Below are positions 15,336 to 63,680 of a DNA stretch of 64,000 nt, one piece after another; position 1 is the first letter of the stretch; each line of letters opens with the position of its first letter. The position numbers and the translations under genes were made by a program. The notes beneath the pieces are model-generated. The model did no database searches. It was not told the DNA's origin and saw only the letters and a list, made by a program, of their open reading frames with translations. Location: contig CM068586.1 in the NCBI GenBank assembly GCA_035048485.1, positions 28,786,349-28,850,348 on the forward strand. The letters run 5' to 3'. This DNA comes from Pteria penguin. Its lineage: Eukaryota; Mollusca; Bivalvia; Pterioida; Pteriidae.

Positions 15336-15344
15336 TAAGCTAAG

Positions 15345-15879: not shown

Positions 15880-16100
15880 TAAAACATGTATACCTTTTAA
15901 TTTTGTGTACCATATGCACATTTCGACAACTTACGTCTCTTCAGTGATGCTCCTGGCCAAATGATAGGAATTCTCATAATATGTAAAGATTTGAAGAGCA
16001 GTGTTGAAAGCAAAACGACCGAAAAGTGAACGAAAAAATCTACCTAAGGACAGAGCTATGCATGATGGAGATACTCCTTAGCTTTTGAGCGTTTTACTTA
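15880..16100. repeat. Dispersed repeat (copy 1)
   Basis: Contains CACCATATGCACATTTCGAC-type and CTCTTCAGTGATGCTCCTGG blocks. It is repeated at 17165-17390 in the same orientation and partly at 49377-49450. No coding capacity. Confidence 0.75.
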
Positions 16101-16123
16101 TATTTTTGTGGTGTTTGGAGGAA

Positions 16124-17040: not shown

Positions 17041-17480
17041 AAATTTGATAACTGAAAATTTGAAGTAGATATTTCGTGTCAGTACAAAAGCACTGAAAAC
17101 TAGACTTATGATGCCCTCGGGAGCTATCAGTCCACCAACAGTGACACCGGCCTAGTGGCTTTAATAAATATGGAACATATATACCTTTTACTTTTGTGCA
17201 CCATATGCACATTTCGACATTTTATGTCTCTTCAGTGATGCTCCTGGGCATATGATTGGAATTCTAATAATATCTAAAGATTTGAAGAGTAGTGTTGAAA
17301 CCAAAACGACCGAAAAGTGAACCAAAGAATCTATCTAGGGACAGAGCTATGCATGAGGGAGATACTCCTTAGTTTTTGAGTGATTTACTAAATTTGATGA
17401 CTGAAAATTTGAAGTAAATATTTCGTGTCAGTACAAAAGCACTGAAAACTAGACTTATGATGCCCTCGGGACCTATAAGT
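17041..17480. repeat. Tandemly duplicated dispersed repeat
   Basis: An approximately 80-bp phrase (CTGAAAATTTGAAGTA..., CAAAAGCACTGAAAACTAGA...) occurs at 17050-17120 and 17400-17475. The two copies flank a second copy of the 15880-16100 repeat. Confidence 0.75.
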
Positions 17481-19643: not shown

Positions 19644-19829
19644 AGTAATGGTGACCATTTACTGATTGTAATCGTGACTATTTACTGATTGTAATCGTGA
19701 CTATTTACTGATTGTAATCGTGACTATTTACTGATTGTAATGGTGACTATTTACTGATTGTAATCGTGACTATTTACTGATTGTAATCATGACAATTTCC
19801 TATTGTAATCGTGACTATTTACTGATTGT
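19644..19829. repeat. 23-bp minisatellite, about 8 copies
   Basis: Unit GTGACTATTTACTGATTGTA plus ATC, with few substitutions, so it has recently expanded. Not present at the matching place in the 38.7-40 kb duplicate. Confidence 0.9.
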
Positions 19830-20234: not shown

Positions 20235-20402
20235 TGTCATATCAATTTATAGTATCTAAATATTCTGGTTATGGTTATCAATTTCTAATATCTAATTATT
20301 ATTGTTATGATTATCCATCTAAAATATCTAAATATTATAGTAATGGTTACCCATTTAAAATATCTAATTATTACAGTTATGGTTATCCATTTATAATATC
20401 TA
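20235..20402. repeat. 36-39-bp AT-rich minisatellite, 4-5 copies
   Basis: Units of TTATGGTTATCCATTTATAA type followed by TATCTAATTATTA. A diverged counterpart is at 39355-39465. Confidence 0.8.
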
Positions 20403-22064: not shown

Positions 22065-22670
22065 TTATAAATCTGTTTTATGTTGAAAAATCCTTTCACA
22101 GCATATATTGGCAACTTCTTTTCTGTTGATTTTGCCATTTTAAGTCTTCGGAAACTGGTCAAAGAATAAAAAGTTCTTGGGAACCTGCATTTGTTGTAGT
22201 AGGTTGGCAGTAGTGTTGTTTGAATTGAGTAGAAAATCTTCCATTTCATCGATAGTTACTTTACAACCTGGTTTTAAGACAACTGCACAGCAAACAATTT
22301 GGAACTCGTTTGGATCTCTACAGATAATTACAGTAGCATCATGAATAGACTCGTGCTGTTTTAATTTGCTTTCCATGGAGACAACAGATTGCAATATTGC
22401 CCCTACTTTAACCAAACTATCAGATATTCTACCTTCAACAATGAGACAACCGTCTTTTGTTATCCGTCCGGAATCCCCCGTTTTGAACCAGCCTTGTTTT
22501 GTAAAGGCTTGTGATGTTTGAATATCATTGCCAAGATAGCCTGCAAATGCCAGAGGTGCTCGGACCAACACTTCCCCGTTTTCTTCTTTCATTACAACAT
22601 TTCCCTTGTCATTGACGACTTTTATCTCCATGCCGGCTACCGGGAAACCGACTTCATAATCTACAGATGG

Positions 22671-23278
22671 GTGCAGTCCTAACATAACATTCACGTTAAC
22701 GCGAAAAGCGGTCACGAGGACTGCTTGAGCACACGTGCTAGGACTGCTCTACCGGACGCGCGTGCGCTCCTTTCGTTAACGCGGGAGGAAATTCGCGTTA
22801 ACGCGATTTAATCCCGTGTGCGCTCAGTCCGGTCGTGCGTTCACATGATTATATTTGTAATTCTCTTTACAGTGGTACGGATGGGGGAAATAAAAGGAAT
22901 CTAATTAAATAACCGCAAATGTCGCTATATATACGTGCATTAAATGTGATGTTGAAATGACACCACGCATTAAGGGTTTCATATGTAATATAATAATGGT
23001 AATCACCGCGCAGACATGCACTCAGGTATTTATGAAAAACTTTGTCAGTTTATACTATAAAGACTCTAGGAAAATTACATTCTAATTCTATCTTATTTGT
23101 TTATTTTCAATTAATAAAATTATGTATTTATTTGTTATTTGTTTATTTATTTATAATTTACTTATGTATTTTTTCTTATTTATGTATTTACATTTTTTTT
23201 TGTAATTTAGCTATTTTCCATAATATATGAATACCATGCTTATCATCGTTATTATTCTTTTCATTAATTTGATTATTA

Positions 23279-23351
<73 letters not shown>

Positions 23352-23768
23352 CATTATTATTATTATTACCCTAAAATAAAAATAAATTTCATTATATTCA
23401 ATGTTCGGAATTTGTATTCAATATTTTTTAAATTTACCCCTTTACTCGTAAGCGTTTTATTTAATTCTAAATATTTATCTACACAGTAATATGTTTTTAT
23501 ATTTAAATATACAATGTATATATATATCGATTCTCCTTTAAATCCTTCTCTATATAAGTTGTAAGCAAGGGAACGTGGCTGTCAGGCACGTTCACGCGGC
23601 AGCCAAGCGCGTGTACGCGGCAGTCCAGCGCGTTAACGCGGTCTCAAAATTTAGTTCACGAGGAAATCTGCGTTAACGCAAACGCGTGTGCTCAGCAGTC
23701 CTGAGCGCACGAGGAAAGCAAACTTCACGTTAACGCGACGTTAACATAATGTTATGTTAGGACTGCAC
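22671..23768. mobile_element. Non-autonomous DNA transposon in synthetase exon 2
   Basis: The ends are a perfect 18-bp inverted repeat (GTGCAGTCCTAACATAAC). Similarity continues imperfectly for over 100 bp into the element. Both subterminal regions are crowded with the palindrome GCGTTAACGC and related CGTTAACG and CACGCG words, far more GC-rich than the AT-rich core. No transposase frame. Comparison with the uninterrupted copy at 40680 fixes the insertion site. Flanks ctacagatgg and ctgtatatgg suggest a diverged target duplication of about 8-10 bp. Confidence 0.88.
23267..23369. repeat. (ATT)n microsatellite inside the transposon
   Basis: About 30 near-perfect ATT units. Confidence 0.95.
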
Positions 23769-25384
23769 CTCACTGTATATGGGACTTGTTTCTGTCGAAT
23801 GTTTGAAAAGATATGATTCCAATTTCTGTGCATCCGTAAACAATTCCAAATCTTTCACATACTTGACTCATTTTATTCGTAAGAGATGCAGGAATAGGAC
23901 ACTAGGGATTTGAACTTCCAGGACTGATTTTTGTCAGTCCTCATTTCAAGAAGGGTGCTGGGTAAGACATATGATGCATCACATTCCTCCTCTAGCAAAA
24001 TATTGTTTACGACTTTGTTGTAATCGGCAATGCTTGGTATGGAAGATAAGTTCTTTATGACAACGCGGGTACCTCCTGTAAGGATTTCACAGGTAGGATA
24101 TCTGTAATATGAATAACAGCATCAATATCAACAAAATAATATCAGCAAGCAATCATATCAATACATTATCTCATTTATAAATTTTGTAAGTTTAAATTCC
24201 GAATATCCTTAGGAAACAAGATATGAGATTAATGGTTTTTTAAAGACTAAGAAACAATTATTCTATTAATCATAAATCATAATCATAAGGTATGAATTAA
24301 AAACGAGTAAAATCGAGTATTTCATGCATAGAAAATCCGTTAAGCCATGGATGAAAGTGATTTCGTGAATATTAGCAAGAGAATATCCTGTATATGTAAC
24401 TTTTCTTGTTACAGTGGCTTTTGAAACGAAAACAAAATTCATTAGGAGCACCTAGTTACGTTCTTGATATCAAGAGGATAATCTGGATCTTCACACCCCA
24501 CTCTTATATCTGAATTCGCTAATACGAATTTTGTAATTTTTTCGAATATGCGCTTTGAAGACATATAATCAAAATCTGACATACTCGTTCATGATATCAT
24601 CTTCAAATATGCATCGTACATACCCTGCTATCCATTTAAATGGTCGGTCATTAAAAGTCTTTTTACTTTCTTTGCCGAAGATATGTTCAAAGTTGTGTCC
24701 GGTAAACAGCAAAGACAAATGCGTTAATGGGATCAACTTTGGGGTTCCCGTACTCCCTGACGTCATCAGTATCACTGCATCATCCTCTGGGTATATCGTT
24801 GGTAGACGTATTTCTGAGTGTCCCATTATCATAACGTCACGAAGTGTAAGGTAAACATTCTGTTGATCCTGGGACATTGCTATTAGCAATTTCAAATTTG
24901 GTAAAGCAGCACAAGTTACTTGACCCTTGGTAGTGCAAATTTCGAAAATATGTTGCAAAATGGACACATTTATATTATTCTGACCCGGAGGAAATATGAC
25001 AGCTTTGCATTTGTCGTTGAGATTTCTTAATATATCCATCAAATCGCTTCCATCCTTGACATTGAAATTGAAGAGCAATGTGGTAGCTCCACACATTTGT
25101 GTACCGACTGAAGCAATCATCCATTCCGGACAAGTCTCCGTCCCTATAGTAACAATATCGCCTCTCTTGATTCCAAGGTGGACAAGTCCTTTAGCAAACT
25201 TCGTAGCATTAACCAGTATTTCTGCAAATGTTATTGTTTCCTTTCGTTCATTCATCCAATCCATAAATATTTGTGCAATACCCTTTGTTTCAGCATGTCG
25301 TGATATCATATCTGGAATGGTTGTAAATGGAACATCTATATCCCCATTACCTCTGATATAACTCATACTACATTCCCTGTCCAT

Positions 25385-27854
25385 GGTTAATGTGTATCTG
25401 ACGAGAGCGTGCTCGCTAAAGATCGATTAGTTGTATGAACATTCAAATGTATTTGCCAATGGGAAAGACATTCGAACAAAAAGAAACACAAGTTAAAGTT
25501 CAAAGAAATATATAAAACATTTTGGTCTGATGATCACAAAAATGGGTAACGTGTAGCGGAAGAATGGCCACAATATGAAATTATCGTTTCAAACATTTAT
25601 GATGATGGATTTCTAAAATTGATTCAAATCCATTACAAAATTTACTTATTTATGTTTTATATCAGTAAAATAGTAATGATACACAGTATTGCTATTACCA
25701 ATGAGCATATTCAGAATATATGTATGTTACTCTTCATGCCGAAGACATTCATATAAATGGTCTACAGATTTGTGTTTTCCCCTGCGTATCGGTATGTAGT
25801 ACCTGTATGTCACTTTCGTTAGCGCCTATGAACCGAAGACGTTATTGGCTATTTAAATAACTCGTCATCCAGGGTCTGTCCATTCATTTGTCTGTCTTTC
25901 CGTCCGTCCGGCGTAAACTTTCCGATCCTGTGGCCAAACTGGTTAGACATAAATAGATTACAAGTGTTAACGTTGTTATATGTTGTTCAGATCTGCCAGT
26001 ATGTGTACCAATGCCTGGTTAGGTAAGCCTCAGAAGGTGCCGTCCTTTAACTTCTATAGACTGGCTGCATAGATCAATTAATCGAAGTATAAGAATAATC
26101 TAGAAGAGTGCTATAAGTGATTGGATGTTTTGGTGAAGTTCCTTAGATCAATGCGAGGAAGATATTATATAGATATGATGGTCTCCTCAGAACTAAGCGT
26201 ATGCTGTAATGTTAATGAAACTTATTAGGTATGAAGTACTCTCGTCTCCAGCAAGCATTGCTGGGTGCACCAAGGTCACAGTGACAACATCTCAAGAGAG
26301 TATGTTACTTTGACAAACTATTTACTTCAGACCACCTGCACAGACCAATAAATCTATGGCAATATATATATTGCACTTCGAGTTGTGGAAATCGTCTGGT
26401 ATCTCAGATTTTTATACAGAACACTAGAATATGCAATTTTATGTATACATCAATGTATAAGAGGTTAAAACAGATAAAAATTGATATTATTCACGGTCAC
26501 ATTGCCAGTGAATCTAATAAACCACGAGTTCTTGTTTAAAATTACTGATTTCAACACAACCGTATAGGCCACACGTAAAACCTTTTTATTCTCGTTCAGA
26601 GTAATAAGTTAAAATTTTGAGAAAATATCCACTAGGGATAGGGACCAGCAAAAGGTCATAGTCGTAATATACTACATATTAAAGTGATTTTTAATTCAAA
26701 CTTGCCTAACGTGATTCAGTCTGAGTTGTATGACATAGGTATACACAGCCATGCATAAAAACATAGTTTAAAACAGAAACGTAAATAATCTTATGCAGTG
26801 TTGGTATCGATTAAAGTAGTTCGAGATTCTCTGCCCTTCTCCCACTTTTGATATCGGCGGTTTCTAGAAGAGGATCAGAGAGACTCCAGGTCTAAAACAT
26901 ACCTGAGAGTAAAACAAAGTGTAAATACGGTTTGTCTTAGCAACTTCCACATTTGTAGTAAATGTTTAAGGCGCGAATTAAGCTTAACATTAAAACGAAC
27001 CAACGATTATTACCAATCTGGAAATGGAATACAAACGTGTATCATAACCTCAATTTAACAAATGAAACCTTTTAATAATGCATCTTGGTATTTGATTTCT
27101 AAATTTTTTTTCATTTTGAAGGCTTGAAATACATTGTTGAATTCTATTTTTTAATGATATAAACTCAGAGTATTAGGACAAAGAAAGACAATGTTTTGTA
27201 TAAGAAGGCCGACAGGTAGCTTTCAGTTTCAAAAGACAAGTATATCAGACAAACCATACTAAATTTATATTAATTTTGACTGATTTATTGTTAATACTTT
27301 GAGCCACACGTAGACCGGTTTGCTTTTTTCATAACTGTAAATCAGTGAAACCATTCTTTATATGTAAAATCACGCACTAGAGTTTCATATCGTACCCCGA
27401 TTGTAATGGGCACTCACTTGTCCCAACACTAATATAGAATTATCCATGTATATGCCCTGTCTTTTGAATGTTTTCCTATTAAATAAGTGAGATATAATTC
27501 ATTAATTTGAAAATATATGACATTTCATTTGTTGTAGAAAGATATTGTATTCATTTTGAAGACATTATTTCCAATTGAGGATTTTCTATGTGTTCACCAT
27601 GGTATATTATTTGGGTGCTAGAGGGACATTGCATATTATAAAATACGAAAAACAACAAAAACATTTCCAAGAAAGACGAGTCAAAATTAGTTCAACTTTA
27701 CATATTTATACGATAAAGATATTTCGGAATTTTGTGAAATTTATTTATAACATATCGCCGTTGGAAAACAGCAACTTATATTAAAAAAAATAATAATTCG
27801 TACCATTAAAACACCGGAGGATATCATACATTTCGTAAAACGAAATTATGAAAA
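25385..27854. other. Upstream flank of dead synthetase copy, no gene
   Basis: Non-coding. Many blocks match 42370-45000 (for example TTTCAACACAAC near 26550 and 43190). The block 27180-27660 recurs at 43870-44940, 53560-54050 and 59290-59860, so this is part of a multi-copy segmental duplication. Confidence 0.55.
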
Positions 27855-28744: not shown

Positions 28745-30035
28745 TTGTAATATAGTTGAGACACCGACTTAGGACGGTAAATTGAAATAATGCTGGTCAC
28801 TCAATTAGTATGGTTAACCGCTTTAGGGGCCCACCTTCCCACTCACCTCAACGCAGAGCACTTAAAGAACATACATTTAAAATTTATGAATTATACTCCA
28901 TATATACATATCAAAAAGGTGCTTGTTCCATCAGAGTCCAAACTAACAGTCAGAGGGGACAAGTCTCGGGACCTCATCTCGTCTGAGAAGCTTTCGACAA
29001 GGTCGCCTTAAAGTACTTACCGCCCTGTTAGAGTGCAACGCTCCAGGAAAGGCCTGTAAATTGTTGCAGAGTGGTCCAGTACATGACTTACTGTCGTGTC
29101 GATGAAGTTAGATTCATGTTGGCAATGGAAAAGGCGTTTGGCTATTTTAAAGCCTGATGCGATGAAGTAATCTGAACTTTTGACCCCTCTAAGTTTATAT
29201 ACAATGTCACCATAGAAATGTGGATTGGAGACCCCGTTAGATACATAAGTTTGAAAAGTAATATTGATAAAAGCTCTGAAAATGATCGATCGAATTTTCC
29301 GAAAATTTTTTGTCTGAGTTTATGTTATCAGTAAACCTGAGTCAAAAGTTTCGATGCATATTTGTTATGAAAATTAAAAACATAAATAGAGGTTCTAGCA
29401 TATCGAACCAACTGCATCTGGGAAATGTAAATACACTCTACTATATAATGGGAGTCCAAAAACTTTTCCATCTAACCATGGAAAATTAGCAGTAGGAAAT
29501 CTGAAGTCTATAAAAGACACTTTTTCTGAATGGCTTAACCTTTTGGTATCTCGTTGTTAACTTACAGTAAATATAAACGTGTATATAGATTTTATTCTTA
29601 ATCTTGATATAGACGTCCAAACAAAGGTGATTCGTTGTTGGATTTATTTAGTTGAAGTTCCGGAAGATTGTTTTAGGGTTATCGATGATTATCCATATAT
29701 CTAGACGTGTTGTTAAACTTGCCAATAAGGTCACAGCCTTAGATTTTTGAAGTTGAATCATGAAGTCCCTCTCAAAACAAAACAAAAATAGGTCTTCCAC
29801 AAGAGGGGCGTAGTTGGTGCCCGTGGAAATCCTAGTACTCGTCTATATAATTATGTTGCTGTCAAATTGCACATAAATATTGTCCATCGGAAAAGTGATG
29901 AGATTACAAATCTTACTTCAAGTTCAATATTTGTATTTTTTAATTTTATAAAAGAAAAAGAAATCCAGATTTATTAGAAGTGTAGAAGTATTTTAGACAC
30001 TGTAGAAACACCAGCGTATTAGAGACAATTCCGAG
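28745..30035 (-). pseudogene. PLE (family B) RT and 3' UTR, heavily decayed
   Basis: On minus the order is: LRYAGVSTVSK-like N-terminal remnant, the FPTDNI..CQFDSN block, a degraded GTNYAPLVEDLFLFCFERDF, IIDNP, then C-terminal HFYGDIVYKLRGVKS-like sequence and a 3' UTR. The SECIS at 28941-29030 retains the outer CTAACAG arms, but its core has mutated. Stops and shifts occur throughout. Confidence 0.7.
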
Positions 30036-30245: not shown

Positions 30246-30534
30246 TTGGAGTTCGTATTTATCTGAATATGACATTGTACACGATATTGGCCTTTCATTC
30301 CAGGGACATCGAGATGCCATTAACCGTTATGTACGTCTTCGTTGTTTACTTTAGTTTCAAACAGCTATACTTTTATTGCAATTGGCCGCTTTGTCAGCAA
30401 AAGAAACACAAAAGTATCATGACTTGCTGCCATTTCATTTTTAATGGACTTTTCTGGGTTTTTTTAGATGGTTGTTTAAATTTAATGTGGATTTAGTGTA
30501 CAATTTTCCAATCATCGAATCATGTTTTAACCTC

Positions 30535-30960
30535 TTCTCTCTTGTTCCATCGTTCATAACAGGTTGGTAACGCTTTATCTACGACATCCCGACATTTCTT
30601 TAAGTCTGTCTAGGATCGTTATCTATATTCTGGTCTTTTATTTAACAGTGTGCGTAGTTTTTAATCCAAAATACAAATAAGATAACAGGTGACAATATGG
30701 CCTGCAGATGAATATGCTAATTTAAATAATCACAAGATCAAGAATATGGTTTAGATTCAGAAATATCAGGGTCGGAATGGACACCATTGTAATTAAAAAT
30801 AATATTTCTAATAGGGATTTTATATCGAGAACAAATGAGTGATAGTTAAAAGGTTTTGGAAATATGCGGAATTTCAGATTTGACTCTATGATCAAAAAAT
30901 AGTTTGAAATAGTAAAGAAATCTAAACCTTTCTTTTTTAACAGACTTCACGTTGAGACAT
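30535..30960 (-). pseudogene. PLE N-terminal (pre-RT) fragment
   Basis: Homologous in order to 12420-12700 (phrases such as AGATTTGACTCTATGATCA and CATTGTAATTAAA). Coding is lost to frameshifts. Confidence 0.6.
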
Positions 30961-31007
30961 TATATTTTTGGTGGAAGTGATGGTATTTTTAGAAAACTGA
31001 TTGATTG

Positions 31008-31268
31008 ATTGATTATTGTTTTACATCACTCCAGGATTATTTCAGGGATATGGTTACGGCATCTGCCTTATGCATTGGATACAAATTTAGAGCTTTGCAA
31101 AGGACCCACCCGAAGCAGTGAGGGATCTTTAACGTGCGACGCCTAACGTGACACGGGACCTCGGTTTTACTATCTCAAAGACAGAACACCGGTGTGCCCA
31201 GGGCGGGAGTCGAAACCGGGACCTCTCGATCAGGAGCCGAGCACCTTATCCACTAGGCCACATCGGTT
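31008..31268 (-). mobile_element. tRNA-derived SINE
   Basis: Minus-strand copy of the 27855 SINE family. It has a box B-like GGTTTCGACTCCC, a core with CGTTAAAGATCCCTCACTGC, and an (AATC)n tail (seen as GATTGATTGATTGATT on plus). Confidence 0.82.
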
Positions 31269-31329: not shown

Positions 31330-31566
31330 CAATTGAAACATGATGGATAAATCCAAACCATAAGTCAAAAAATCATGAAACCAGAGGACATACAAAATCA
31401 GTGAAAATGAAAAACAAGTGGAAAATAACAAAATATGTCTACTTGAAGAGCATGTGAACCCCTGTAATGGAGTGAGACCAGGGAGAGTGAGCATCTCCTG
31501 CTTGCTAGCAACACCCGGCACACATACCCGGTAAAAAGAGTCAAATCTTGTAAATTCCATATATAT
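31330..31566 (-). repeat. PLE family A 3' UTR/tail
   Basis: Inverted copy of 5214-5455. The SECIS-like fold is damaged: the core reads GCCGGGTGTTGC rather than GACGGG, and the distal arm is changed. Confidence 0.78.
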
Positions 31567-32420
31567 TTATATATGGAGAATTCAAAGTAGGTAACCTTCT
31601 AGTATAAAAGGTGTCAAATCTGTGTAAAATGATCGGAATCGGTTTCAGTCCAGAATATCATTTAAAAGTCTGCATATCGAGATATCATAGTCTCGTAACG
31701 ACCGTAGAACTTCCTCAGTGACGTTGCTAGTCTAGCACATATATAACCCTGGTTGAGCAGCTTAACTGAAAGTCGCCTAGCCCTCAGAACAAAGTCATTT
31801 TAATTTGAACATGCTCTGGAATATCGTATTAACTGAGATATGAATACGCCGTATGCGGGCGATGATGGAATGTTGCTACTTATGAAAGGAAAGTTTGTGA
31901 TAGCGAAATTGAAATCGTCATGTTTGTCATAGAGTGAGATGTTCAGTTGACCATAATGTATAATAAGGAATATGTCAGCCAGAAGCGGAGCACAGTAAGT
32001 GCCCATTGGAATGCCGACAATTTGTTGAAAAACCTTTCCTCCAAACAACACAAAAATGTTATCGATAAGAAAGTTCAACATCTGGATGACAGCTGTTTCA
32101 GTGTATTTATTTTTGGAATCAGAATTTTCCCTAACAATGTAAGTTTTATCGTAGCCTATTACTATATATTTGAATTTGCGGCTTCTGTTTTTACTAGTAA
32201 ATGCATTTTGAATAATTTCCGCTAATATGTCTTTTAATTTCTGATGAGGGATCGTTGTGTAAAGAGTCGAAAAGTCAAAAGACTTGATGGAGTGAATTTT
32301 AATAAAACTTTTTGATTTTAGATGTTCTAACAACTCTTTTGAATTTTTATGGATCCACATTTGATTAATTCCACTTCTGGAATATACTGTTTCGCAATAT
32401 CTATGAAGGCCAGATTTTTA
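31567..32420 (-). pseudogene. PLE (family A) reverse transcriptase with shared UGA codon
   Basis: Read on minus: YCETVYSRSGINQMWIHKNS, KSFDFSTLYTTIPHQKLK (RT motif A region), KYTETAVIQMLNFLIDNIFV, KVFQQIVGIPMGTYCAPLLA, then a deletion removing the YIDD block. DKHDDFNFAITNFPF and AYGVFISQLIRYSRACSN follow before a TAA. After a 13-bp deletion the C-terminus reads LLNDILD-UGA-NRFRSFYTDLT (TGA at plus 31645-31647), to a TAA at 31569-31567. The UGA is at the same position as in the 4506 copy. The element is dead, but it preserves the most N-terminal RT sequence of family A. Confidence 0.8.
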
Positions 32421-37639: not shown

Positions 37640-37929
37640 CCAAGCTAATGTTAGAGTTCCAACTAACAGTCAGAGGGGACGAGATTCAGGACCATTTGTC
37701 TTTTGACAAGGTTAGACAAGGTTGGTCAACGAGTCTCCACTGCTGTGTAAGTCACAATTTTAACGCTCTTCGAAAAGTCTGTATAATGCCAGAAAGAGAC
37801 CAAACAGAAGACTTGGTGTCTTTGTGGTGATCTCAGAGTCCTACCTTCGATGTAGAAAGTGTTTAACTATTTTTGATCTCAATTAGATTGTGATGAGAGA
37901 TTCCTCTGGATACATACTGCTGAAAGAGT
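37640..37929 (-). pseudogene. PLE (family B) 3'-end fragment with SECIS-like remnant
   Basis: Inverted 3' RT/UTR sequence. Helix II/III is readable at 37661-37745 (ACCTTGTC...GACAAATGGTCC with core UUGAC and UGAA). The outer CTAACAG arm is on one side only. The same UUGA core occurs in the 15.4-kb segmental partner. Confidence 0.6.
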
Positions 37930-38560: not shown

Positions 38561-40086
38561 TTTCCATACTTTTAAACTTCATCTCTTCAAACCATATATC
38601 TTCTTAGCTATATTCTTGACTGAGACCTATTTTTAACTTTGAATTTCATACCTTCCGTATATGATTCAATTACTACTATTTCTACTATACGTATATAACA
38701 GGTTTTGCTAGCAGAAAGCGAATATTTACTTCTCACACTCACCTTATCTAAGTGAATCACCTAAATTTTGGGATTCCCATATACTCCATATACTCCATAC
38801 TCCATATACAGATTCTTCTTGGCCTGTTTTTTAAATTGCTGTTATCCATTATCTTATTTCGATATATCATATTTATATGCCTGTATATTGAATGTATCAT
38901 GGTTACATACCTTTATAATGTCGATTTCATTTATTCTGTTATCCCATTTATTAAAAGAGTTTCATTCAATTTTGACACAGCTAGTTTTCTCTGTTAAATA
39001 TGGTGTACAATCTAACAACAAATACATATATGGCTACCTCGTATAGTTTATTTGTTGACTCTTAATAGAAAATTGCTATGTAAATAACAAAGACTTGTCA
39101 ATACAAAACAAATACTGGTCGATAATTAATATCTCTATTTCGTTTTGTTAAATAAATGTTCTTTATTGACTACTCGGTGTGGTAACGTTTTATTTACTAA
39201 TCTTGACAGCCAAAATTATTTATTTACCTATTAAAATGTTTCATCTAATCATAGGTTGTCATCAGGGTAAGTTTATTCCTCTCTAGCACCTGATCCAGTC
39301 AGCAGTTCCTAATTAATCGATTCCCAGTTTTGAATCTTGGATTACTTGTTTACTATCTTACCAATTTACAATATCTTATTATTCTGGTTATTATTATCTA
39401 TTAATAATATCTCATTATTATTGTTATATCTATCCATATATAATATCTAATTATAATAATTATAATAGTATGAAATGGTAATCATAAGGTGTTAATCATA
39501 TCATACGTTTAGAAACAAAAATAATATCTTTTCATATTGAAGAGCTTTAAAACTTTTCATTTCACGCAAACAAAAATTTTTCACTTTTATTCATTCTTAT
39601 CATTGATGGTTTAATGTTATTGCATCCTTTGCGTGAAGAGAAAAAAGGACCGGCAAAGTCATTACGGTCACCAGAATTTATATGAAAAATGCAATGACTC
39701 TCCATAAAAAGCCAAAGTTGGGAATAGGTGTTATAAAGGAGAAAGTTTTAACTGCCATTGTAACAAATTACACCTTCATCGTTATCAATAAAAAGTGAAT
39801 ATTCCCTTTTCCCGCGATTTAGCTTTTAACAGTGCAGTTTATATCTGTCGATATTTTCTCTATATTGAAAATAGTTAGTGAGATATTTACACGATTTATC
39901 ATGTACTTCGTACTTCAACAATCATCTTGATTAAAATATTAGCCGAAACAAGTAGTGATTTATGTTCAGTATGAAACTAGTACAAACCATTAATTTGTGT
40001 ACTTTTCATAAATAATACATGTTACTTATTCCCGTTGATTTTTGCCGTCGCACGTCTTTGGGACCACAAGTCATACATCACTAATA
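38561..40086. other. Downstream flank of intact synthetase, no gene
   Basis: Homologous in blocks to 18950-22060. It lacks the 23-bp minisatellite and the MITE found there. Confidence 0.5.
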
Positions 40087-42366
40087 TCAGTCTTTTTTAT
40101 ATTGAAACAACCTTTCATTGCATATATTCGCAACTTCCTTTCTGTTGATTTTGCCATTGTACGTCTTCGGAAACTGGTCAAAGAATAAATAGTTCTTGGG
40201 AACCTGCATTTGTTGTAGTAGATTGGCAGTAGTGTTGTTGGAATTGAGTAGAAAATCTTCCATTTCATTGATAGTTACCTTGCAACCTGGTTTTAAGACA
40301 ACTGCACAGCAAACAATTTGGAACTCGTTTGGATCTTTGCATGAAATTACAGTAGCATCCTGAATTGACTCATGCTCCTTTAATTTGCTTTCCAGGGAAG
40401 CAACAGATTGGAATATTGCCCCTACTTTAACCAAACTATCAGATATTCTACCTTCAACAATGAGACAACCGTCTTTTGTTATCCGTCCGGAATCCCCCGT
40501 TTTGAACCAGCCTTGTTTTGTAAAGGCTTGTGATGTTTTAATACCATCGCCAAGATAGCCTGCAAATGCCAGAGGTGCTCGGACCAACACTTCCCCATTT
40601 TCCTCTTTCTTCACAACATTTCCCTGGTCATTGACGATCTTAATCTCCATGCCAGCTACCGGGAAACCGACTTCATAATCTACATTTGACTTGTTTCTAT
40701 CAAATGTTTGAAAAGATATGATTCCAATTTCTGTGCATCCGTAACCAATAACAAATCTTTCACATACTTGACTCATCTTATTCGTAAGAGATGCAGGACT
40801 AGGTTGGCTGCCAGACACTAGGGATTTGAACTTCCAGGACTGGTTTCTGTCAGTCATCATTTCATGAAGAGTGCTGGGTAAGACAGCCGACGCATCACAT
40901 TCCTCCTCCTTCAAAATATTTTTCACGACTTTGTTGTAATCGGCAATGCTTGGTATGGAAGATAAGTTCTTGATGACAACACGGGTACCTCCTGTAAAGA
41001 TTTCCCAGGAAGGATATCTGTAATATCAATAACAACATCAGTACTAACGCAATAATATCAGTGAGTTATTATCTCAGTAATTTTTCGCATTTATAAATTT
41101 TTAAATAAATACGAAAGTAGTTGATATGGTATTTCTACCAAAAATACAATTCTGAACATTTATTAATGTCTCTTGAAAGCAAGAGGTGGAATTAATGTTT
41201 TTCAAGAATAAGAATCGATTAATCTAATATTTCTATACCGTGAAAAAAAAACGATTAAAATCGAGTCTTTCATGCATAAAACATCCTTAAATCCATCAGT
41301 GAAACTGATTCGTCGTTTTAGTAAATATAAGCAAGAAAAAGAAATTCTTTTCTATCTAACTTTTCTTATTGCAGCGGCTTATGATAAAGATCAAATTTTC
41401 CTCAGGAGCACCTGATAATCATGATAATTTTTATCTTCATACCCCCCCCCCCGCCCCACTGTATGATTTTGTTCATACAAGCCTTTGTGATTTCTTTTCT
41501 GATATCCGAGTACATAGTGATGTCTTACATTCTAAAAACATATAATCAAAATGTTGCATACTCGTTCATGATGTGTTATTTTCGTCAAATATTAACCATA
41601 CATACCCTCCTATCCAGTTAAAAGGTCGGTCATTAAAAGTCTTTCTACTTTCTTTGCCGAACGTAAGTTCAAAGTTGTGTCCGTAAAACAACAAAGCAAA
41701 ATGCGTTAATGGGATCAGCTTTGGGGTTCCCGTACTCCCTGACGACATCAGTATCGCTGCATCATCCTCTGGGTATATCGTTGGAAGATGTATTTCTGAG
41801 TGACCCATTATCATAACGTCACGAAGTGTAAGGTGATTAGTCTGCTGTTTCTGAGACATTGCTATCAGCAATTTAAGATTTGGTAAAGAAGCACATGTTA
41901 CTTGACCCTTGGTATTGCAAAATACGAAAATATGTCGCAAAATGGACACATTTATATCATTCGGATCCGGAAGAAATATGACAGCTTTACATTTGTCGTT
42001 GAGATTTGTTAATATATTCATCAAATCGCTTCCATCCTTGACATTGAAATTGAACAGTAATGTGGTAGCTCCACACATTTGTGTTCCGACTGAAGCAATC
42101 ATCCATTCCGGACAAGTCTCCGTCCCTATAGCAACAATATCGCCTCTCTTTATTCCAAGGTGGACAAGTCCTTTAGCAAACTTCGTAGCATTAACCAGTA
42201 TTTCTGCAAATGTTATTGTTTCCCTTTCTTCATTCCTCCAATTGATAAATATTTGTGCAATGCCCTTTGTTTCAGCATGTCGTGATATCATATCTGGAAT
42301 GGTTGTAAATGGAACATTCATTTCCCCATTACCTCTGATATAACTCATACTACATTCCCTGGCCAT
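40087..42366 (-). CDS. Acyl-CoA synthetase (AMP-binding enzyme), two exons, apparently intact
   Basis: Activates a fatty or carboxylic acid to acyl-AMP and then acyl-CoA. It most resembles medium-chain/ACSF2-like ligases, but the substrate is not determined. Exon 1 is 42366-41606 (ATG, MARECSMSYIRG; 253 codons plus two bases, donor GG|GTATGT). The intron is 411 bp. Exon 2 is 41017-40087 (acceptor ATTACAG), ending FQYKKD and TGA. The joined protein is 563 aa. Motifs in order: MSSGSTGTPKLIPLTH (P-loop-like A3, about residue 210), IGYGCTEIGI (A5, about 340), GWFKTGDSGR (A7), EGRISDSLVKVG (A8) and PKTYNGKINRKE (A10, catalytic Lys) near the C-terminus. No clear mitochondrial presequence or signal peptide. 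The upstream ATG is the first in frame after stops. Its paralogue at 22065-25384 is dead. An alternative is a longer gene with extra 5' exons. Confidence 0.88.
41017..41607 (-). other. Intron of the acyl-CoA synthetase
   Basis: A phase-2 intron bounded by GTATGT (minus strand from 41605) and ATTACAG (ending 41018). It contains a C-rich run near 41443. The orthologous intron in the pseudogene is 24623-24102. Coordinates are given in transcript order. Confidence 0.8.
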
Positions 42367-44214
42367 GGTTAATGTGTATCTGACGAGAACGAGCTCGCTG
42401 ACGGTCGATTAGCTGTATGAATATTCAGCAGCATTCTATGGGAAGACATTCGCACAAAAAACCCACATTTTTGTCAATCTCTATATCGGAGGCGCTCATA
42501 CAAATGGTCTACTTTTGTGTTCAGGCAGATTTTTGTGGTTTCACCTGTGCATCCCTGCGTAGTACCTCGTATCCGAATTGCACTGCATACCATAGAACTA
42601 GGATAAGCACTAACAAGGTGACCTTGGTGTAATCTGCCGACCTTTACGTGTGTTTATTCACCACACTCAAGACCCTTTTTAAAAATCACTTTTACATTTG
42701 AGATCAATATGTGGTTAAAATATATGACAATTTGGAAACTTTGTAAAACTTGCAGTATGCAGTGATTTCTTTAACACAACGTGATTAAAATAAAATTCCT
42801 ATTAAATATAAGAAAAGCTTGAAATAATGAACATAACCTTTTTTGAAAAAGATATGACCATCGTTAAAAACCGTGCAGTGTTACCATAAGGAAATATCTT
42901 AAATAATTAATTTTCAACTTACTTGTAGTAAAACAGAACTGGTTTATTGACTTTGTTTCATTGTTGTAACATTCATTCTTTTTGCAGTATGGATCTCTCC
43001 ATAATAAAATATCATTCACCTATTTAACTGTTATGGCTCGACGTTTTCTGCGTCATTTGTGCAGCTTGTGGGTATTGTATGCTTAATCAGTCATGATGTT
43101 TGAAGTTAAGTGATCACTGAGATTGAAACGTCACACGTCACATTGCCAGTAAATCGATTTCATGACTAAACTGTACTGATTTCAACACAACTGTACAGGT
43201 CAATTATAAAACCATAATATCCTTGTTCAGAAAAAAATCTTTTGCTGAAATATCCACTAGAGATAAGAAAACACCAAGAGGCCATTTTCTGAATTTTCCG
43301 CATATTAAAGTGACTTTCAATTTTAATCTTTACGTGTCTAACGCGATCTAAGGTGTATGACATAGACATTCGCAGCCATGCATAACAAATACATAAACAG
43401 TTTAATACAAAACCGTCAAAATGTTAATTTATACAGAGTCGGTACCGACTAAAGACGATCAAATGCAAATAAATTTACGAACCAGTGTGAAACTCAGCAA
43501 ATCTTTGCGTAGCACCATATATCAGAGTTTATTTCATAACAATTAAGAGTACTTAATGTTATCTTATGTCAATTAAGCAATTTTCCCACGCTTAAATCAT
43601 ACCTCAAATTAAAACAAAGTGTAAATGCAGTAGTTTTAGCAACTTTTACAGTTGTAGGTCATGTTTAAGATACGAATCAGGCTTATCATCAAAGCTTATC
43701 TGGAATACAAACATGTACTCCATGTATCATAAACTTAATTCAACAAATGAAGTCTATCAATAATGCCTCTTGGTGTATTTTCATCAAATTTATTGTTGAA
43801 TACTTTGTCCTAAGTTTTGATAAGATAACCTGAGAGCATTAGGGCAAAGAATGACACGATTCTGTGTAAAACGATGGCCGACAAAAGGCAGGTATATAAG
43901 ATAACCCATACTAACTTTATGTTAATTTTGCCTTATTTAAATTTTATACTTTGAGCTACAAGTAGACCAGTTTGCTGTTAACTGTTGCTGTAAATCCATT
44001 GAAAAAAGATCTTTATATGTAAAATAACGCAGCAGTGGAATGTGGGATTTCATTTTTTTCTGTTATTGCATTGTGTACTTTGCTTCTTCTTCCAATATGA
44101 AGTGTACTCAAAAGTGGAGCATTATACTTCATGTGGCAGTCAAGATAAAAGCCTCACAGGGCAATATGTTACAGGTAAAAAGTTAAAATCCTTGATCATC
44201 ATCCTAAGCTGAAG
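42367..44214. other. Upstream flank of intact synthetase, no gene
   Basis: Presumably contains the promoter, but no element is distinctive. The first 50 bp are almost identical to the flank of the dead copy (25385-25435). Confidence 0.5.
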
Positions 44215-45589: not shown

Positions 45590-46125
45590 TGAGACATCGT
45601 CTTAGGAAGGTCAGCTGAAATAACGCTAGTATCTCAATTTGTGTGCTTAACCGGTTAACCGGGAAAACCTTCACACTCACTACAACGTAGAGCGATTAAA
45701 GGACTTACATTTAAAATGTATAATGGATAAAAATTACTATTTGAAATATAAAAGTGCCGTATTGTTCTGTTTTCTGAAGGCGAGGTAAGGTACTTGTTCT
45801 ATCGGAGTTCCGACTAACACTCAGTGGGGACAGGGTTCAAGACCTTCTCTCCTCTAAGGAGGTTTAGACAATGCCCGTCTTAGAGTCCCCAACGTTCGAA
45901 GTAATTTGTACAGTAAAGTTATGCAATTCAAAAATGTCAGTACAGGTTCCGGCAAATCGAACCGATCGCAATTGGGAACTGTAAATAATATATAGTCTAG
46001 AACATCGCCATCTTACCATGGGAATCTGAACTCTTTATGAAAGGCTGAAGTCAATCAGTAATTTGCTAACGAAATTAATTCGACGACTCTATCATTTCTA
46101 TAACAATAACCTCAAGTCTGTATTT
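45590..46125 (-). pseudogene. PLE (family B) 3'-end fragment with decayed SECIS
   Basis: Inverted 3' UTR and RT C-terminal remnants. The SECIS at 45811-45890 keeps helix II/III (GGGCATTGTC, AAAC, CTCC..GGAG, GAGAAGGTC) and the GGGGAC-type helix I. Its core AUGA has become AAGA. Confidence 0.6.
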
Positions 46126-51747: not shown

Positions 51748-52087
51748 TGGCCCTATTCTAAGATTAATAAGTGCAACGCCAAGAAATGTCTTACTTGCCA
51801 TCATTTAATCTGCAAGTCCAATATTGAATCTTCAGTTAATGGAAATACATATAACACCAAATTAGACAAAGACACAGATTGACATACTGCCAGTGTTATA
51901 TATGTCATCACTTGGGAAGCTAGAGGATGTGGGGTTTAATATGTCGGGGAAACTTCTCAAACTTTGAAACAACGTTTTCGGAATCAATCCTGTAAAATTC
52001 GTAATAATTCAGGACGTAAATACCAGAAATTTCTTTATAACTACTTTAATAAATACCAACATAATATTAACAATGTGAAAATAACTC
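51748..52087 (+). pseudogene. GIY-YIG nuclease domain of a PLE (N-terminal position)
   Basis: A Cys/His cluster (INKCNAKKCLTCHHLICKS) is followed by a linker and the GIY-YIG core. The core has VIYVIT (51895-51912) for GIY, YVGETSQTLKQRF (from 51940) for YIG plus the catalytic Arg, and KYQKFLYNYFNKYQHNI in the C-terminal part. The frame has a TGA at 51880-51882, five codons before VIYVIT, where homologous GIY-YIG proteins commonly have Cys. A TAA is at 51937-51939, just before YVGET. PLEs use this domain to nick target DNA. Here it precedes the RT, the permuted order of Naiad-type PLEs. Confidence 0.75.
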
Positions 52088-52964
52088 ATGAATAATATTC
52101 TTGTGCAATTTGATGGCAAGATATATCAAGAAATAGTTGGGATTCCTATGGGTACTAACTGCGCGCCTCTGATAGCAGATTTATTTCTTTATTGTTATGA
52201 GAGGGATTTTATGGTTTGTATTAAAAAATCAAAACGTTTCGATCTCATTGACAAATTTAATAATACTTGCAGATATCTGAATGACATTTTGGTTATCGAC
52301 AACCCTCAGTTCGAACAATTTATATCAGAAATATATCCACCAGAGATCAAATTCAATAAAGCTAATACCTGAGATAAATCTACACCTTTCTTCACATTTC
52401 AACATCAAAATTATCAACCGCCTAATATATGCTAATATTTATGATAAACGTGAGGAGTTTGGATTTCCTATTGTACATTTCCCTTACTTGGATGGCGATG
52501 TCCCTCGACTCCCATCATATGGTATCTATATATCTCAATTAGTTCGATTTGTCAGAGGCTGCACCGATGTTTTGGACTTTCATAAACGAAATTTACAAAT
52601 TACTACTAAACTTTTAACTCAGGTTTACAGATACCACAAGCTTAGAAAAACATTCAGCAAATTCTTTAGATCATATTTAGAACTTCTATCTAAATTTGGA
52701 AATATTTCTTTACAACACTATGTATCCAATGGAATTTCCCATCCTAATTTTTATGGTGATCTCGTATGTAAACAAGGGAAAGTAAAAGGCTACGATAACG
52801 TTATTTTATCCTGTAATAAAATAGTCAAACGTCTTTTAAATAGACAATATGACATTGAGATCATCAAAAACACTATAGGTCTTGTATTTGGCCCCTCTAC
52901 AGCCTTATGCAGACTTTTACTTGAATGTTGCACGCTGACTAACAGGGCGGTGGGGACTATATGA
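52088..52964 (+). pseudogene. PLE (family B) reverse transcriptase, N-terminal RT deleted
   Basis: Directly after the nuclease the RT resumes at NNILVQFDGKIYQEIVGIPM, GTNCAPLIADLFLYCYERDF, CRYLNDILVIDNP (YLND in place of YIDD), KANT and a TGA (52370-52372, Ser position, nonsense). A frame change follows into DKREEFGFPIVHFPYLDGDV, RLPSYGIYISQLVRFVRGC, HKRNLQITTKLLTQVYRYHK, NFYGDLVCKQGKVKG and ALCRLLLECCTLTNRAVGTI, ending at TGA 52962-52964. The missing segment between nuclease and RT indicates an internal deletion. The stop codon lies within the SECIS AUGA. Confidence 0.82.
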
Positions 52965-53031
52965 CGGGCCTTGTCCAAACCTCTTTCAGAGGAGACATGG
53001 TCCTGAACCTCGTCCCCTCTGACTGTTAGTC
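52937..53031 (+). promoter_or_regulatory. SECIS element (type II form), PLE family B
   Basis: Outer stem GACTAACAG/CTGTTAGTC; helix I GGGGAC (52952-52957)/GTCCCC (53012-53017). AUGA is at 52961-52964 and UGAA at 53004-53007. Helix II is GGGCCTTGTC/GACATGGTCC. The AAA bulge is followed by a perfect five-base CCTCT/AGAGG helix III with a TTC loop. Compared with the 7952 copy, helix III differs in sequence while pairing is kept. The UGA in the nuclease is about 1.1 kb upstream, within the range over which eukaryotic SECIS acts. Confidence 0.7.
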
Positions 53032-55005: not shown

Positions 55006-55558
<553 letters not shown>

Positions 55559-55659
55559 AAATCAAGTATAGTGAAAAAGTTATAGTGAAAAAGGTGGTTA
55601 TTTTTGTATGGTCAGGTCCCAAAATGTCGGTTAACATTCTTTAAAGAGGAATCTAAAAT

Positions 55660-56260
55660 TGCACTAGAAGGTGAGGTAAGGTACATGTTCTATTTGAGTC
55701 CAAACTAATACTCATTGGGGACAGGGTAAGATTTATTGTCTTAGCGATGATCTTAACGTTATATTGGCAATGGTGAAGGCGTTTGACTATTTTAATAAAC
55801 ATGATGCGATGAAGTCATCTGAGCTTTTCACCCTTTTAAGTTTATATGAAAGATCACTGTGGAAATATGGATGGGAGATTCCGTTATACACATAAGTTTG
55901 AAAGGTAATATATCCGAATTTTAATAAAAGCTATGAATAAAATCTATAGAAATTTCCGAAAGATTTTTTTCTGAGTTTATGGTATCGGTAACCCTAAGTT
56001 AAAACTTTTGAGGTAGTTTGTATATTTTTATTATGAAATTCATAGATATCAGTACAGTTTCTAGCAAATCGAACCGATTGCAGCTGGGAAACATAAATAC
56101 CATATCATGGGAGTCTAGGAACATCGCCATCTAACCATAAAAATGCGAATTCTTCACATTTATCAGACACTCTTTATGATAGGCTGAAATCAATCAGTAG
56201 TTTGCTAACGAAAATAATTCGACGACTTCGACTTATCATTACCGGAAATTTAAGGTATGA
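55660..56260 (-). pseudogene. PLE (family B) 3'-end fragment
   Basis: Inverted and decayed, matching 45830-46110 and 29130-29480 (ACACATAAGTTTGAAA..., AATTTCCGAAA..., GTATCGGTAACCCTAAGT). The SECIS part is almost entirely deleted (only an AACTAATACTCATTGGGGAC remnant near 55703). Confidence 0.62.
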
Positions 56261-59999: not shown

Positions 60000-60900
60000 A
60001 ATGAAAACACTCTGGTTCGTGTGCACTCTTTGACCTTAATCTTGTAGATATGAACTTGGTTTAAGGTCATTACACATTCTTGGGTCATGGACAACAATTG
60101 TGTAAAATATAGTCCTCCAGCAATTCAACAGGAAAAAGTTATGACCCAGACAAGAATTCTGACTATGTGTACACTGTGATATTTCCATTGTAGATATCAC
60201 CTTGGTTCAAGGTAATGACACACCCTGAAGTCGTGAACAATATTTGTGTAAAATATTATCTCCCTCCAAATTAAAAGGAAGAAGTAACGACTCGGACAAG
60301 AATTCTGTCTATGTATGAACTGTGACCTTGACCTTGGTTTATAGTCATGACATACCCTTGGGTCATGAAGAACAATTGTGTAAATTCGATCTCCCTTCAA
60401 AGTAAAAGGAAGAAGTTATGGCCCGGACAATTTTCATGGACAGACAGACAACACTTTCCGTACAATGTCATACACACCTTTGAATCATTAACAACAATTG
60501 TGTGAAATGTTATCCTGATCTAACATAGCAGTAAGGAGTTGCGGTCCGGACAACGATTTTGACAACTGTGCATTCTGACCATGACATTGGAGATACGATC
60601 TTAAATCAAGGTCATAACACATCCTTGGGTCATGGACAACAATTGTGTGATTTATTATCCAAATCAATCATGGTGGAAAGAGGTTATGGCCCGGACAAAT
60701 CTTTTTGCTTTGTGTGTACTGTGACCATGACCTTAAAGATATGACCTTGAGTCAGGTCAAGACATTTCCTTCGGGCATGGACAACAGTTGTGTGAAATAT
60801 TATCCCGATTAGGGGGTAAGAAGTTATGGCCCGTACAAATGTGAACAGACGGACAGATAGACAGACAGGGTGATTCCATAAACCACCACCAAACTTTGTT
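60000..60900. repeat. Tandem array of about 120-146-bp units
   Basis: At least six units, each with GTTATGGCCCGGACAA, a CTGTGACC(A/T)TGACCTT phrase, TTGGGTCATGGACAACAATTG and TGTGAAATATTATC. Related to the repeats at 17.6 and 37.9 kb. Non-coding. Confidence 0.82.
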
Positions 60901-61069: not shown

Positions 61070-62560
61070 TCGCTCAATTGGTGTATTAACCGGTTTACGG
61101 GCGCCCACCTTCCCAATCACCGCAAAAGCAGCACAATCAAAGGACACACATTTAAAAATTTATAAATAAATCATATGGAGAACATGGATCAACAGGTTTC
61201 TGAAAAAGTTATTACACACAAAACGTTTATAGAATAATATGTTGCTATCAAAAATACATAAGGCGCCATCAACATATGTAAACCGTGCTCTGCCCGTCTG
61301 TAAGCAAGCTAGGATCCTTGATCAATAGGAATAGCGGCTAACAGTCAGAGGGGACGAGGATCAGCTCCTTGTCTCCTCTGAAAAGGTTTAGAGAAGGCCC
61401 GTCATAGAATCCCCACCGACCTGTTAGTCAGAGTGCAACGCTCAAGTAAAAGTATGTATTGGCCTGTAGTGGGACCCAATACCAGATATATGGTCTTAGC
61501 GATGATAGCGGGGTCATACTGTCGACGTCGAGGGCGTTTAATAATTTTAGATCCCACCGATATGAAATTATCGGAACCTTTCAACCTCCTTACTTTGTAC
61601 ACTAGATCACCATAGAAATTGGGATGGGGAATTCCGCAAGATACGTATTGTTGAAAAGTCACATTTCCGAATTTAGATGAAATGTCCGAATAAGATCTTT
61701 AAAGTTTACCAATCGTTTGGCGAAGTTTATGATATCTATAACCCTGAGTAAGAAGTTTAAAAGTAATCTGAGAATTAAATGCGTGAAAATCCGAAACGAA
61801 CCATTTGACTAATATAAATACCATATGATGGGAGTCTGGGTCATCACCATCTAGATAAGGGAAAATTACTATAAGAAATCCAAAGTCGTCACGTTTATCA
61901 TATATATGAAAATGGTTGTTAATAATGTTTCTTAGTTGGAAGTATTGGCTTTGTTTACATGAAGTTCAGATGAATAAATGTCAGTAATATAGTTTTTAAA
62001 CTCAGGGTTATCGATGACTAAAATATCAGCAAGATATCTAGAGGTGTCATTGAACTTATCAATAAGGTCGAAACGTTTAGAGTCTCTCTCATAACTGTTA
62101 AAAAATAAATCTTCTATAAGGGAAGCAGTTAGTGCCCATATGAATCCCAACGATCTGTTGATAAGTTTTGCTGTTAAATTGTACATGAATATTATTTATA
62201 AAAATGTGATGGCATTACACAACTCAATACAACACCAATATTTATAATTATCATATTGTTTGTTAAAGAAAAACCCAGATGTAACTGAAGTACAGAGGTA
62301 TTTACACTCTCTGTGGAAACACCGGCGTATGAAAGACAACAATTTGGTTGTGATTAAGTTATAAGATAAGAGAGGTATATGTGTCGAAAAATCAAAAGTA
62401 GAAACGTTATTTGCCTCAAATTTCTCAAACGGAATTTTTCAATGACTTAGTTAGAATTTTTGATAGACCAAAAGTAATTGACGTTTCTATTGCTAAAGAC
62501 AATTCTAGATAACATGGTCTTTAACTGCAGTAAGAGCGCAAGTGATATGTTTAGAAATCA
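61070..62560 (-). pseudogene. PLE (family B) RT with 3' UTR, frameshifted
   Basis: On minus, in order: VNYFWSIKNSN, LRYAGVSTESV region, NLTAKLINRSLGFIWAL (damaged GIPMGTNCAP), SLIEDLFFNSYERDS, RYLADILVIDNPEFKNY, KANTSN, a decayed DKRDDFGF region, then FQQYVSCGIPHPNFYGDLVY, KVRRLKGSDNFI and LLERCTLTNRSVGIL. It ends at TGA 61404-61402, within the SECIS, followed by the family B 3' UTR. Several stops and shifts are present, but it is one of the most complete family B copies. Confidence 0.78.
61336..61431 (-). promoter_or_regulatory. SECIS element, PLE family B (minus copy)
   Basis: On minus: outer arms CTGACTAACAG/CTGTTAG, helix I GGGGA/TCCCC, AUGA (61405-61402) opposite UGAU (61363-61360). Helix II (GGGCCTTCTC/GACAAGGAGC) has mismatches. 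AAA bulge and CCTTTTCAGAGG apical part. Slightly decayed. Confidence 0.6.
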
Positions 62561-62639
62561 CAGTTGTAGATTAATGACTAGAAGTTGATATTAACGTGAT
62601 TTTTATGGATTTTTGTGTAATTTGGGAAGCCAATTAATT

Positions 62640-62885
62640 GTTGGAATGTAAAGAAGATGGATAAATCCAAACCATAAGTCCGAAAATTATGAAACCAGAG
62701 GACATACAAAATCAATGAAAATGAAAACTAAGTGGAAAATAACAAAATATGTCTACTTGAAGAGCATGTGAACCCCTATTATTGAGTGAGATCAGGTTCC
62801 CGGGGAGAGTGAGCGTCTCCTGCTTGCTTGCAACACCTGTCACGTATATCCAGTAGAAAGAGTGAAATCGTGTAAATTCCATATA
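62640..62885 (-). repeat. PLE family A 3' UTR with SECIS-like fold
   Basis: Inverted tail. The fold reads GTGACAGGTGTTGCAAGCAA...GGGAACCTGATC (about 62838-62786). The change of CAC to AAC is the kind of drift expected in a dead copy. Confidence 0.75.
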
Positions 62886-63190
62886 AAGATCATTTAATTT
62901 AATTTCGTTTAAATTAAAGTCACAAATAGCTTTACAATGATCAGATAGGATTTTGTCTTTAAACAATGGGGGTTCAACATACGTAGACGTAGAGTTTAGT
63001 TCCGTTTTAAGAACTGTAATAATGTATATTTTTCAAACAATGATAAAAGAATTAGCTGCTTTGTCAGCAGGTACGAAGACATACGTATTATGTAAATCAG
63101 CCGTTTTCTTTTTTGTAGACTGGACTGGTACATAATGTGGCTGTTTGAATAAATGGGGATTAATTGTAAACTTTTGGATGCGAATATCGA
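62886..63190 (-). pseudogene. PLE (family A) N-terminal RT fragment fused to 3' UTR
   Basis: On minus: HYVPVQSTKKKTADLHNTYV, FVPADKAANSFIIVWKIYII, ELNSTSTYVEPPLFKDKIL, HCKAICDFNLNEIKLNDLYM, then directly the 3' UTR. The whole catalytic RT is deleted. The frame is open for about 100 codons and preserves the VPADK block. Confidence 0.72.
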
Positions 63191-63284
63191 TATTTTTCAG
63201 ATTTTACTTTTCAAGTCATTCAAGGCATGTATTTTCACACCTTCTATTTACACCATCGTTTACAATAAGTGTTTAATGTAAAGA

Positions 63285-63555
63285 TGATGGATAAATCCAA
63301 ACCACAAGTCCAAAAATCATAAATAGGACATACAAAATCAGTGAAAATGAAAAACAAATGGAAAATAACAAAATATGTCTACTTGAAGAGCATATGTGAA
63401 CCCCTGTGATGGAGTGAGATCAGGTGCCCGGGGAGAGTGAGCATCTCCTGCTTGCTAGCAACACCCGTCACATATACCCCGTAGAAAGAGTCAAATCGTG
63501 TAAATTCCATATGTATTTATATATGGAGAAGTCGAAGTAGGTAACCTTCTAGTAT
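63285..63555 (-). repeat. PLE family A 3' UTR, second inverted copy
   Basis: Well-preserved tail, including GTGACGGGTGTTGCTAGC, AAGC and CCGGGCACCTGATC (about 63472-63418). Confidence 0.78.
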
Positions 63556-63680
63556 GCTTCTTCAACAGCATCCAGGCATTTGGTGAAATTTATCCTGGAA
63601 GGTAATCTATACTTTGGTCTAAGCCATTATTAACAAATTCCAGAGGACAGCTTATATCGAACCTATGACATCATACTATG
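63556..63680 (-). pseudogene. PLE N-terminal fragment, internally deleted
   Basis: Matches 12361-12420 joined to 12706-12760 (deletion of about 285 bp relative to that copy). Confidence 0.65.

Follow-up and report, generated by a model that had tools for sequence, protein, structure and literature searches.

A SECIS element overlapping the predicted stop codon of a probable selenoprotein gene in a Naiad-type Penelope-like retroelement of Pteria penguin

The window analyzed here, a stretch of 64,000 nucleotides of the Pteria penguin genome (GCA_035048485.1, contig CM068586.1), contains dead copies of a Naiad-type Penelope-like retroelement whose single open reading frame (endonuclease, CxC motif, reverse transcriptase) very probably encoded a selenoprotein. 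A SECIS element at the 3′ end of the retroelement is predicted to direct the incorporation of selenocysteine (Sec) at UGA codons which replace nearly invariant cysteines. A sequence-only reading of this DNA had proposed that the element represents a present or former selenoprotein gene, and this proposal is now supported both by the score of the SECIS element and by the presence of UGA at three near-invariant cysteines in three copies. The in-frame UGAs at cysteine positions constitute better evidence than the fold itself.

Detection of SECIS elements was based on the Rfam model RF00031 (SECIS_1), for which the curated gathering score is 35 bits. The element at 52937–53031 (plus strand), which includes a 9-bp outer stem, gave a match at 52953–53016 with 36.6 bits (E = 0.0011), and the best-scoring copy, at 7952–8045 (plus strand), gave a match at 7968–8030 with 43.6 bits (E = 1.3e-5). 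Both exceed the gathering score, so that the SECIS fold announced at 52937–53031 is borne out, together with that of its sister copy. Three copies on the minus strand registered below the threshold: the copy at 61336–61431 (match 61350–61414, 23.7 bits) and a decayed copy at 45783–45894 (match 45827–45889, 29.8 bits; also seen by blastn) in a permissive Rfam search, and a decayed copy at 15338–15496 (match 15379–15444, 19.6 bits; also seen by blastn) in a local search. Two other decayed copies of the minus strand, at 28934–29031 (blastn, 78%) and 37654–37789, were recognized by blastn, and the local Rfam search gave no SECIS match at 28.9–29.1 kb or at 37.6–37.8 kb. A high SECIS score had been suggested as a check on the copies: five of the seven registered with SECIS_1, two of them above 35 bits and three below, and two went undetected. 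The four SECIS_1 matches found over the whole window with E ≤ 5 all lie inside copies of one retroelement family, and the seven copies listed in the earlier reading are mutually homologous by blastn.

The fold at 52937–53031 has a predicted energy of −46 kcal/mol (z = −5.2), and none of 200 dinucleotide shuffles was as good. The corresponding values were z = −3.7 for 7952–8045 (1 of 200 shuffles as good) and z = −2.1 for the minus-strand copy at 61336–61431 (5 of 200). For the first two copies, the architecture described previously was recovered, with the 9-bp outer stem, the GGGGAC/GUCCCC helix I, helix II, the AAA bulge and a small helix III. In the alignment of the seven copies, the AUGA of the core is kept in three, the opposing GA in all seven and the AAA in six. 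Paired cells amount to 83.6% in this alignment vs. 43–50% when the pairing is slid by 1–3 columns; a shuffle control showed no excess. Compensatory changes, which had been hoped for as support, did not appear, as 0 of 31 pairs were altered on both sides among the seven window copies. As these are dead copies of a single family, among which there is little variation, the missing covariation is hardly informative either way. The AUGA:GA quartet, the apical-bulge AAA and helices I to III are the features given for eukaryotic SECIS elements in the text of PMC8704476, and in these respects the present fold is like the RF00031 family.

The position of the fold is less usual. In the 52-kb copy, the C-terminal part of the RT (52383–52961, plus strand) is open and runs into the SECIS core, its translation ending in “CTLTNRAVGTI” before a TGA at 52962–52964, which by translation and model alignment is the UGA of the SECIS quartet and the predicted stop of the RT frame. 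The 8-kb copy, a broken RT at 7067–7976 (plus strand; translation and blastn) with an internal deletion and a frameshift at about 7858, likewise ends in “CTLTNRVVGTV” before the TGA at 7977. The 61-kb copy ends in “CTLTNRSVGIL” before the TGA at 61404 of the minus strand, and the core UGA (61404–61402) is again in the local RT frame. In all three copies, the terminal TGA is the one contained in the AUGA of the quartet. Since the local RT frame enters the SECIS core in the three copies, we take the 5′ arm of the fold to be coding, with the core UGA as predicted stop and the remainder of the element 3′ of it. The SECIS had been placed directly after the RT; the adjacency to the RT stands, but the element does not merely follow it, as the frame reads into the fold and stops at the core UGA. 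Known eukaryotic SECIS elements are placed in the 3′ UTR in the passages of PMC3316567, PMC6163693 and PMC8704476 that bear on this point, whereas the one reported here spans the end of the ORF.

The tails of database homologues show the same boundary. Among 120 homologues listed of 1858, and under a stricter tail rule, 54 end exactly at the SECIS codon, and others read through it with W (41), R (4) or another residue (4); an earlier, looser count had given 53 ends and 40 W. The remaining 17 fall outside the tail rule, although 5 of these likewise end in VGTI on inspection. Homologues with W at this codon typically go on with “RALSKPPQRRQGPDxRPLWLLVG”, and the same tail is obtained when the SECIS of the window is translated in the RT frame with UGA as Trp.

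In-frame UGAs were found in three copies, one in each, at three different cysteine sites and each with a SECIS copy downstream on the same strand. A TGA at 51880–51882 (plus strand) occupies a conserved endonuclease cysteine, by homologue alignment, in the copy which carries the SECIS at 52937–53031. A TGA at 30738–30740 (minus strand) occupies the first cysteine of CxC (TCT TGA TCT TGT); the SECIS remnant at 29.0 kb lies downstream of it. A TGA at 63033–63035 (minus strand) occupies the cysteine of RT motif 1 (AANSFIIV-TGA-K), upstream of the 61.4-kb SECIS. Outside the SECIS family these positions hardly vary: 89 of 90 homologues have Cys at the RT1 site (DKAANNxIII-C-K) and 83 of 83 at the first position of CxC, the other CxC position being Cys in 84 of 85. 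Within the SECIS family, the RT1 site is W in 8 of 9 proteins and R in the ninth.

A comparison is provided by P0170 (596 aa), in which W occupies the RT1 site, the first cysteine of CxC and two positions of the endonuclease. Its first endonuclease W aligns with Cys, and the second stands opposite Cys in one alignment and opposite a gap in another, so that its assignment to a cysteine site depends on the aligner. The window DNA has TGA at three of these four sites and TGG at the fourth, the second endonuclease site (51913–51915, plus strand). As W is what a UGA yields when it is read as sense, this pattern fits UGA codons in P0170; the database states no genetic code for P0170 or P0127, and any single W could therefore be TGG. 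Over the 493 window codons aligned with P0170, we counted 4 TGA, three of them at Cys-to-W sites, and 6 TAA or TAG, none of them at such sites. The unconditioned p-value for TGA at Cys-to-W sites is 2e-6. Ordinary cysteines of P0170 are the fairer control because a single substitution can turn a Cys codon into TGA: TGA occupies 3 of 5 cells at Cys-to-W sites vs. 0 of 14 ordinary Cys cells, 11 of which are still Cys codons (Fisher p = 0.010). Some observations count against this reading. With P0127 as query, 4 TGA fell on 75 Cys cells, of which one is the CxC site and the others lie in doubtful frames or in another family, showing that decay alone can produce UGA. Also, a related fragment at 12353–12728 (minus strand), with no SECIS match nearby, keeps the CxC as Cys-Ala-Cys (TGT GCA TGC). 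Two UGAs of the C-terminal RT part, at 52370 and 7754, were considered as Sec codons and rejected as decay: P0127 has Ser and Gly there, and the other copies have sense codons.

Proteins outside the window give further information on the family. With UGA taken as sense, P0127 (955 aa) and P0128 (821 aa) are long proteins without interruption; both read through the SECIS and both have Cys at CxC. Seven pattern-matched relatives span RT1. Five of them also read through the SECIS stop, which indicates a gene prediction that treated UGA as a sense codon, and the other two end short of it. P0213 (FSP39_024732 of Pinctada imbricata) is a chimeric gene model, the last third of which is a SECIS-family element. 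Its last residues are “DKAANNTIII”, and the RT1 site would come next, as expected, from the protein alone, of a standard-code model if a stop codon stood at RT1. In a FastTree phylogeny of 96 proteins and 296 columns, from which 5 further UGA-type proteins were left out as too short, the UGA-type proteins P0127, P0128, P0170 and P0172 formed one clade with P0213 (support 0.989). In the protein search, all seven homologues carrying an organism name were from Pinctada imbricata.

No relative was found in viral contigs, and genome contigs gave two, L001 and L002. All three sites are Cys in L001; in L002 only the RT1 site is visible, and it is also Cys. No Rfam match at E ≤ 1 was obtained on either contig. 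Penelope-like RTs were also seen in three records labeled as bacterial, namely L001 (a Flavobacteriales MAG), L002 (a Bathymodiolus symbiont MAG) and P0235 (Campylobacter sp.), and these likely represent animal DNA binned with bacteria.

Naiad elements are characterized by an N-terminal GIY-YIG endonuclease, a C-terminal RT, a CxC motif between the two and an insertion-in-fingers domain, and they are not known to carry a hammerhead ribozyme. The window copy at 51754–52961 has this domain order. A remnant of a GIY-YIG-type endonuclease (51754–52086, plus strand; 54% to P0170 with E = 1.7e-33, and E = 2.5e-9 to P0126) precedes a middle RT part in another frame (52085–52393, plus strand, by homology; GIPMGTNCAPLIADLF) and the C-terminal RT part. 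No Pfam family matched the RT and endonuclease pieces of the window, nor P0170. The relative P0173 presents PF01541 at 131–222 and RVT_1 at 642–857, the latter below the Pfam cut-off. The CxC motif occurs in the window as TGT GCA TGC at 12.5 kb and as TGA TCT TGT at 30.7 kb, the latter within the region around CxC (30505–31031, minus strand, by homology) of the copy ending near 28.9 kb. No hammerhead ribozyme was among the 17 Rfam matches of the window up to E = 5. By domain order and the lack of a hammerhead match, the SECIS family fits a Naiad-type Penelope-like element, and the order of endonuclease, CxC and RT agrees with the link to Naiads made in the earlier reading. Canonical Penelope/Poseidon elements share with it an RT and a GIY-YIG endonuclease in one ORF, but their endonuclease is C-terminal according to PMC11167929, whereas that of the SECIS family is N-terminal and unaccompanied by a hammerhead match.

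A literature search on selenoprotein Penelope-like or Naiad elements returned no match, from which we claim no absence from print. The Naiad clade was reportedly described by Craig, Yushenova, Rodriguez and Arkhipova in Mol Biol Evol in 2021, with selenoprotein Naiads containing several Sec in spiders and clams. On this account, the SECIS family would be a further example of a kind of element already known. A truncated SECIS-family copy (56173–55677, minus strand) is bordered on its 3′ side by an extended (TA)n/(TG)n array (55007–55677); insertion at microsatellites is typical of Naiads.

A second Penelope-like family is present in the window at 4400–5450 and 16100–17060, and on the minus strand at 31330–32400, 62656–62884 and 63284–63554. 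The last two are 3′ fragments lying inside the SECIS-family copy at 61.0–63.6 kb, a broken copy (61405–63617, minus strand) which covers sequence upstream of RT1 as far as the end of the RT and which they interrupt. The Rfam search of the window gave no SECIS match in this second family. UGA in this family as a putative Sec codon (for example ILDUD at 4.5–5.2 kb vs. ILECD at 16.3–16.8 kb) has no SECIS match near it and was attributed to decay.

We considered whether the fold could be a structural RNA of the 3′ end of the element, such as one recognized by the RT that the element encodes, and only resembles a SECIS, with the UGAs arising by ordinary decay. Retroelement 3′ ends often bear structures which their RT needs, no compensatory changes were found, and all the copies found in the window are broken with many other stops; that they are broken also counts against the selenoprotein reading. 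However, the match is specific to the SECIS model and exceeds its curated score in two copies. Decay would also have to place UGA on three near-invariant cysteines while sparing the 14 ordinary Cys cells and putting none of the six TAA or TAG there, and it would have to account for W at the same three sites in P0170 and for the end of P0213 at one of them. We thus regard this explanation as very improbable. Even less credible to us is that ordinary readthrough of stop codons, or a change of the host code, accounts for the reading of the UGAs, and not the insertion of selenocysteine. The database homologues in which UGA is read as W would agree with it, but this W most likely reflects the choice of the gene predictor, and the UGAs stand at Cys sites, not at Trp sites, in an element provided with a SECIS.

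A weightier alternative, although we still hold it to be unlikely, is that a former selenoprotein family is now a Cys-containing or non-functional relic which keeps its SECIS only by descent. The window has no intact copy, and the CxC cysteine is present in the 12.5-kb fragment as well as in P0127 and P0128. On the other hand, P0127 and P0128 are long and unbroken with UGA as sense, and relatives elsewhere thus look recent. This alternative also bears on the timing of events in this host and not on the mechanism. Weighing these points, we retain the reading of the element as a selenoprotein gene.

If so, the host factors SBP2 and eEFSec would bind the AUGA:GA kink-turn, and distant UGAs, located 1 kb or more upstream, would be decoded as Sec. 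In eukaryotes, a Sec UGA and its SECIS are separated by a minimum of 51–111 nt according to the relevant passages of PMC3316567 and PMC6163693. In the 52-kb copy, which has undergone an internal deletion, the 1082 nt between the TGA at 51880 and the core UGA at 52962 exceed this spacing. The core UGA is far nearer to the SECIS than this minimum and should therefore terminate translation, acting as a stop inside the SECIS. The protein would then end in residues encoded by the 5′ arm (TNRAVGTI), and signal and stop codon would share bases. Selenoprotein P, for which the text of PMC8704476 gives several Sec codons per mRNA, offers a parallel in this multiplicity, but it is a cellular protein, whereas the SECIS family would encode a mobile-element enzyme with UGA at near-invariant cysteines.

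We tentatively propose, as a possibility rather than a probability, that a retrotransposon using the kink-turn UGA of its own SECIS as stop has a conserved protein tail dictated by RNA structure, and that terminating ribosomes open the SECIS, tying the recoding of upstream UGAs to termination. The overlap raises the question of how a SECIS can function if ribosomes have to move into it in order to terminate. Dependence on the selenium machinery of the host would, if true, tie transposition to selenium supply. Also, the exchange of Sec and Cys could be compared directly within one enzyme family, the sites being Cys in nearly all other homologues examined.

The same arrangement may exist in a sister family (P0144, P0216, P0220 and relatives), for which 18 proteins were retrieved. 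Most of them end in “RASDSMMAPT”, with Cys at RT1 where this site is visible. A pattern search found no CxC region in any of the 18, several of which are chimeric models, and P0216 and P0220 begin just past the expected place of CxC, as if after a stop. Any DNA that encodes “SMMA” has to include ATGATGG, a possible SECIS core. These features hint weakly that the sister family is possibly a second selenoprotein family.

Other features of the window were noted. Two similar gene copies, about 17 kb apart on the minus strand (22140–25426 and 40081–42408), presumably encode an acyl-CoA ligase of ACSF2 type. A tRNA-like match at 31195–31267 (minus strand; RF00005, 31 bits), which ARAGORN did not report, is possibly a SINE or due to chance. 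Tandem arrays occur at 19645–19829 (23-bp unit), 20240–20402 (36-bp unit) and 60042–60325 (146-bp unit).
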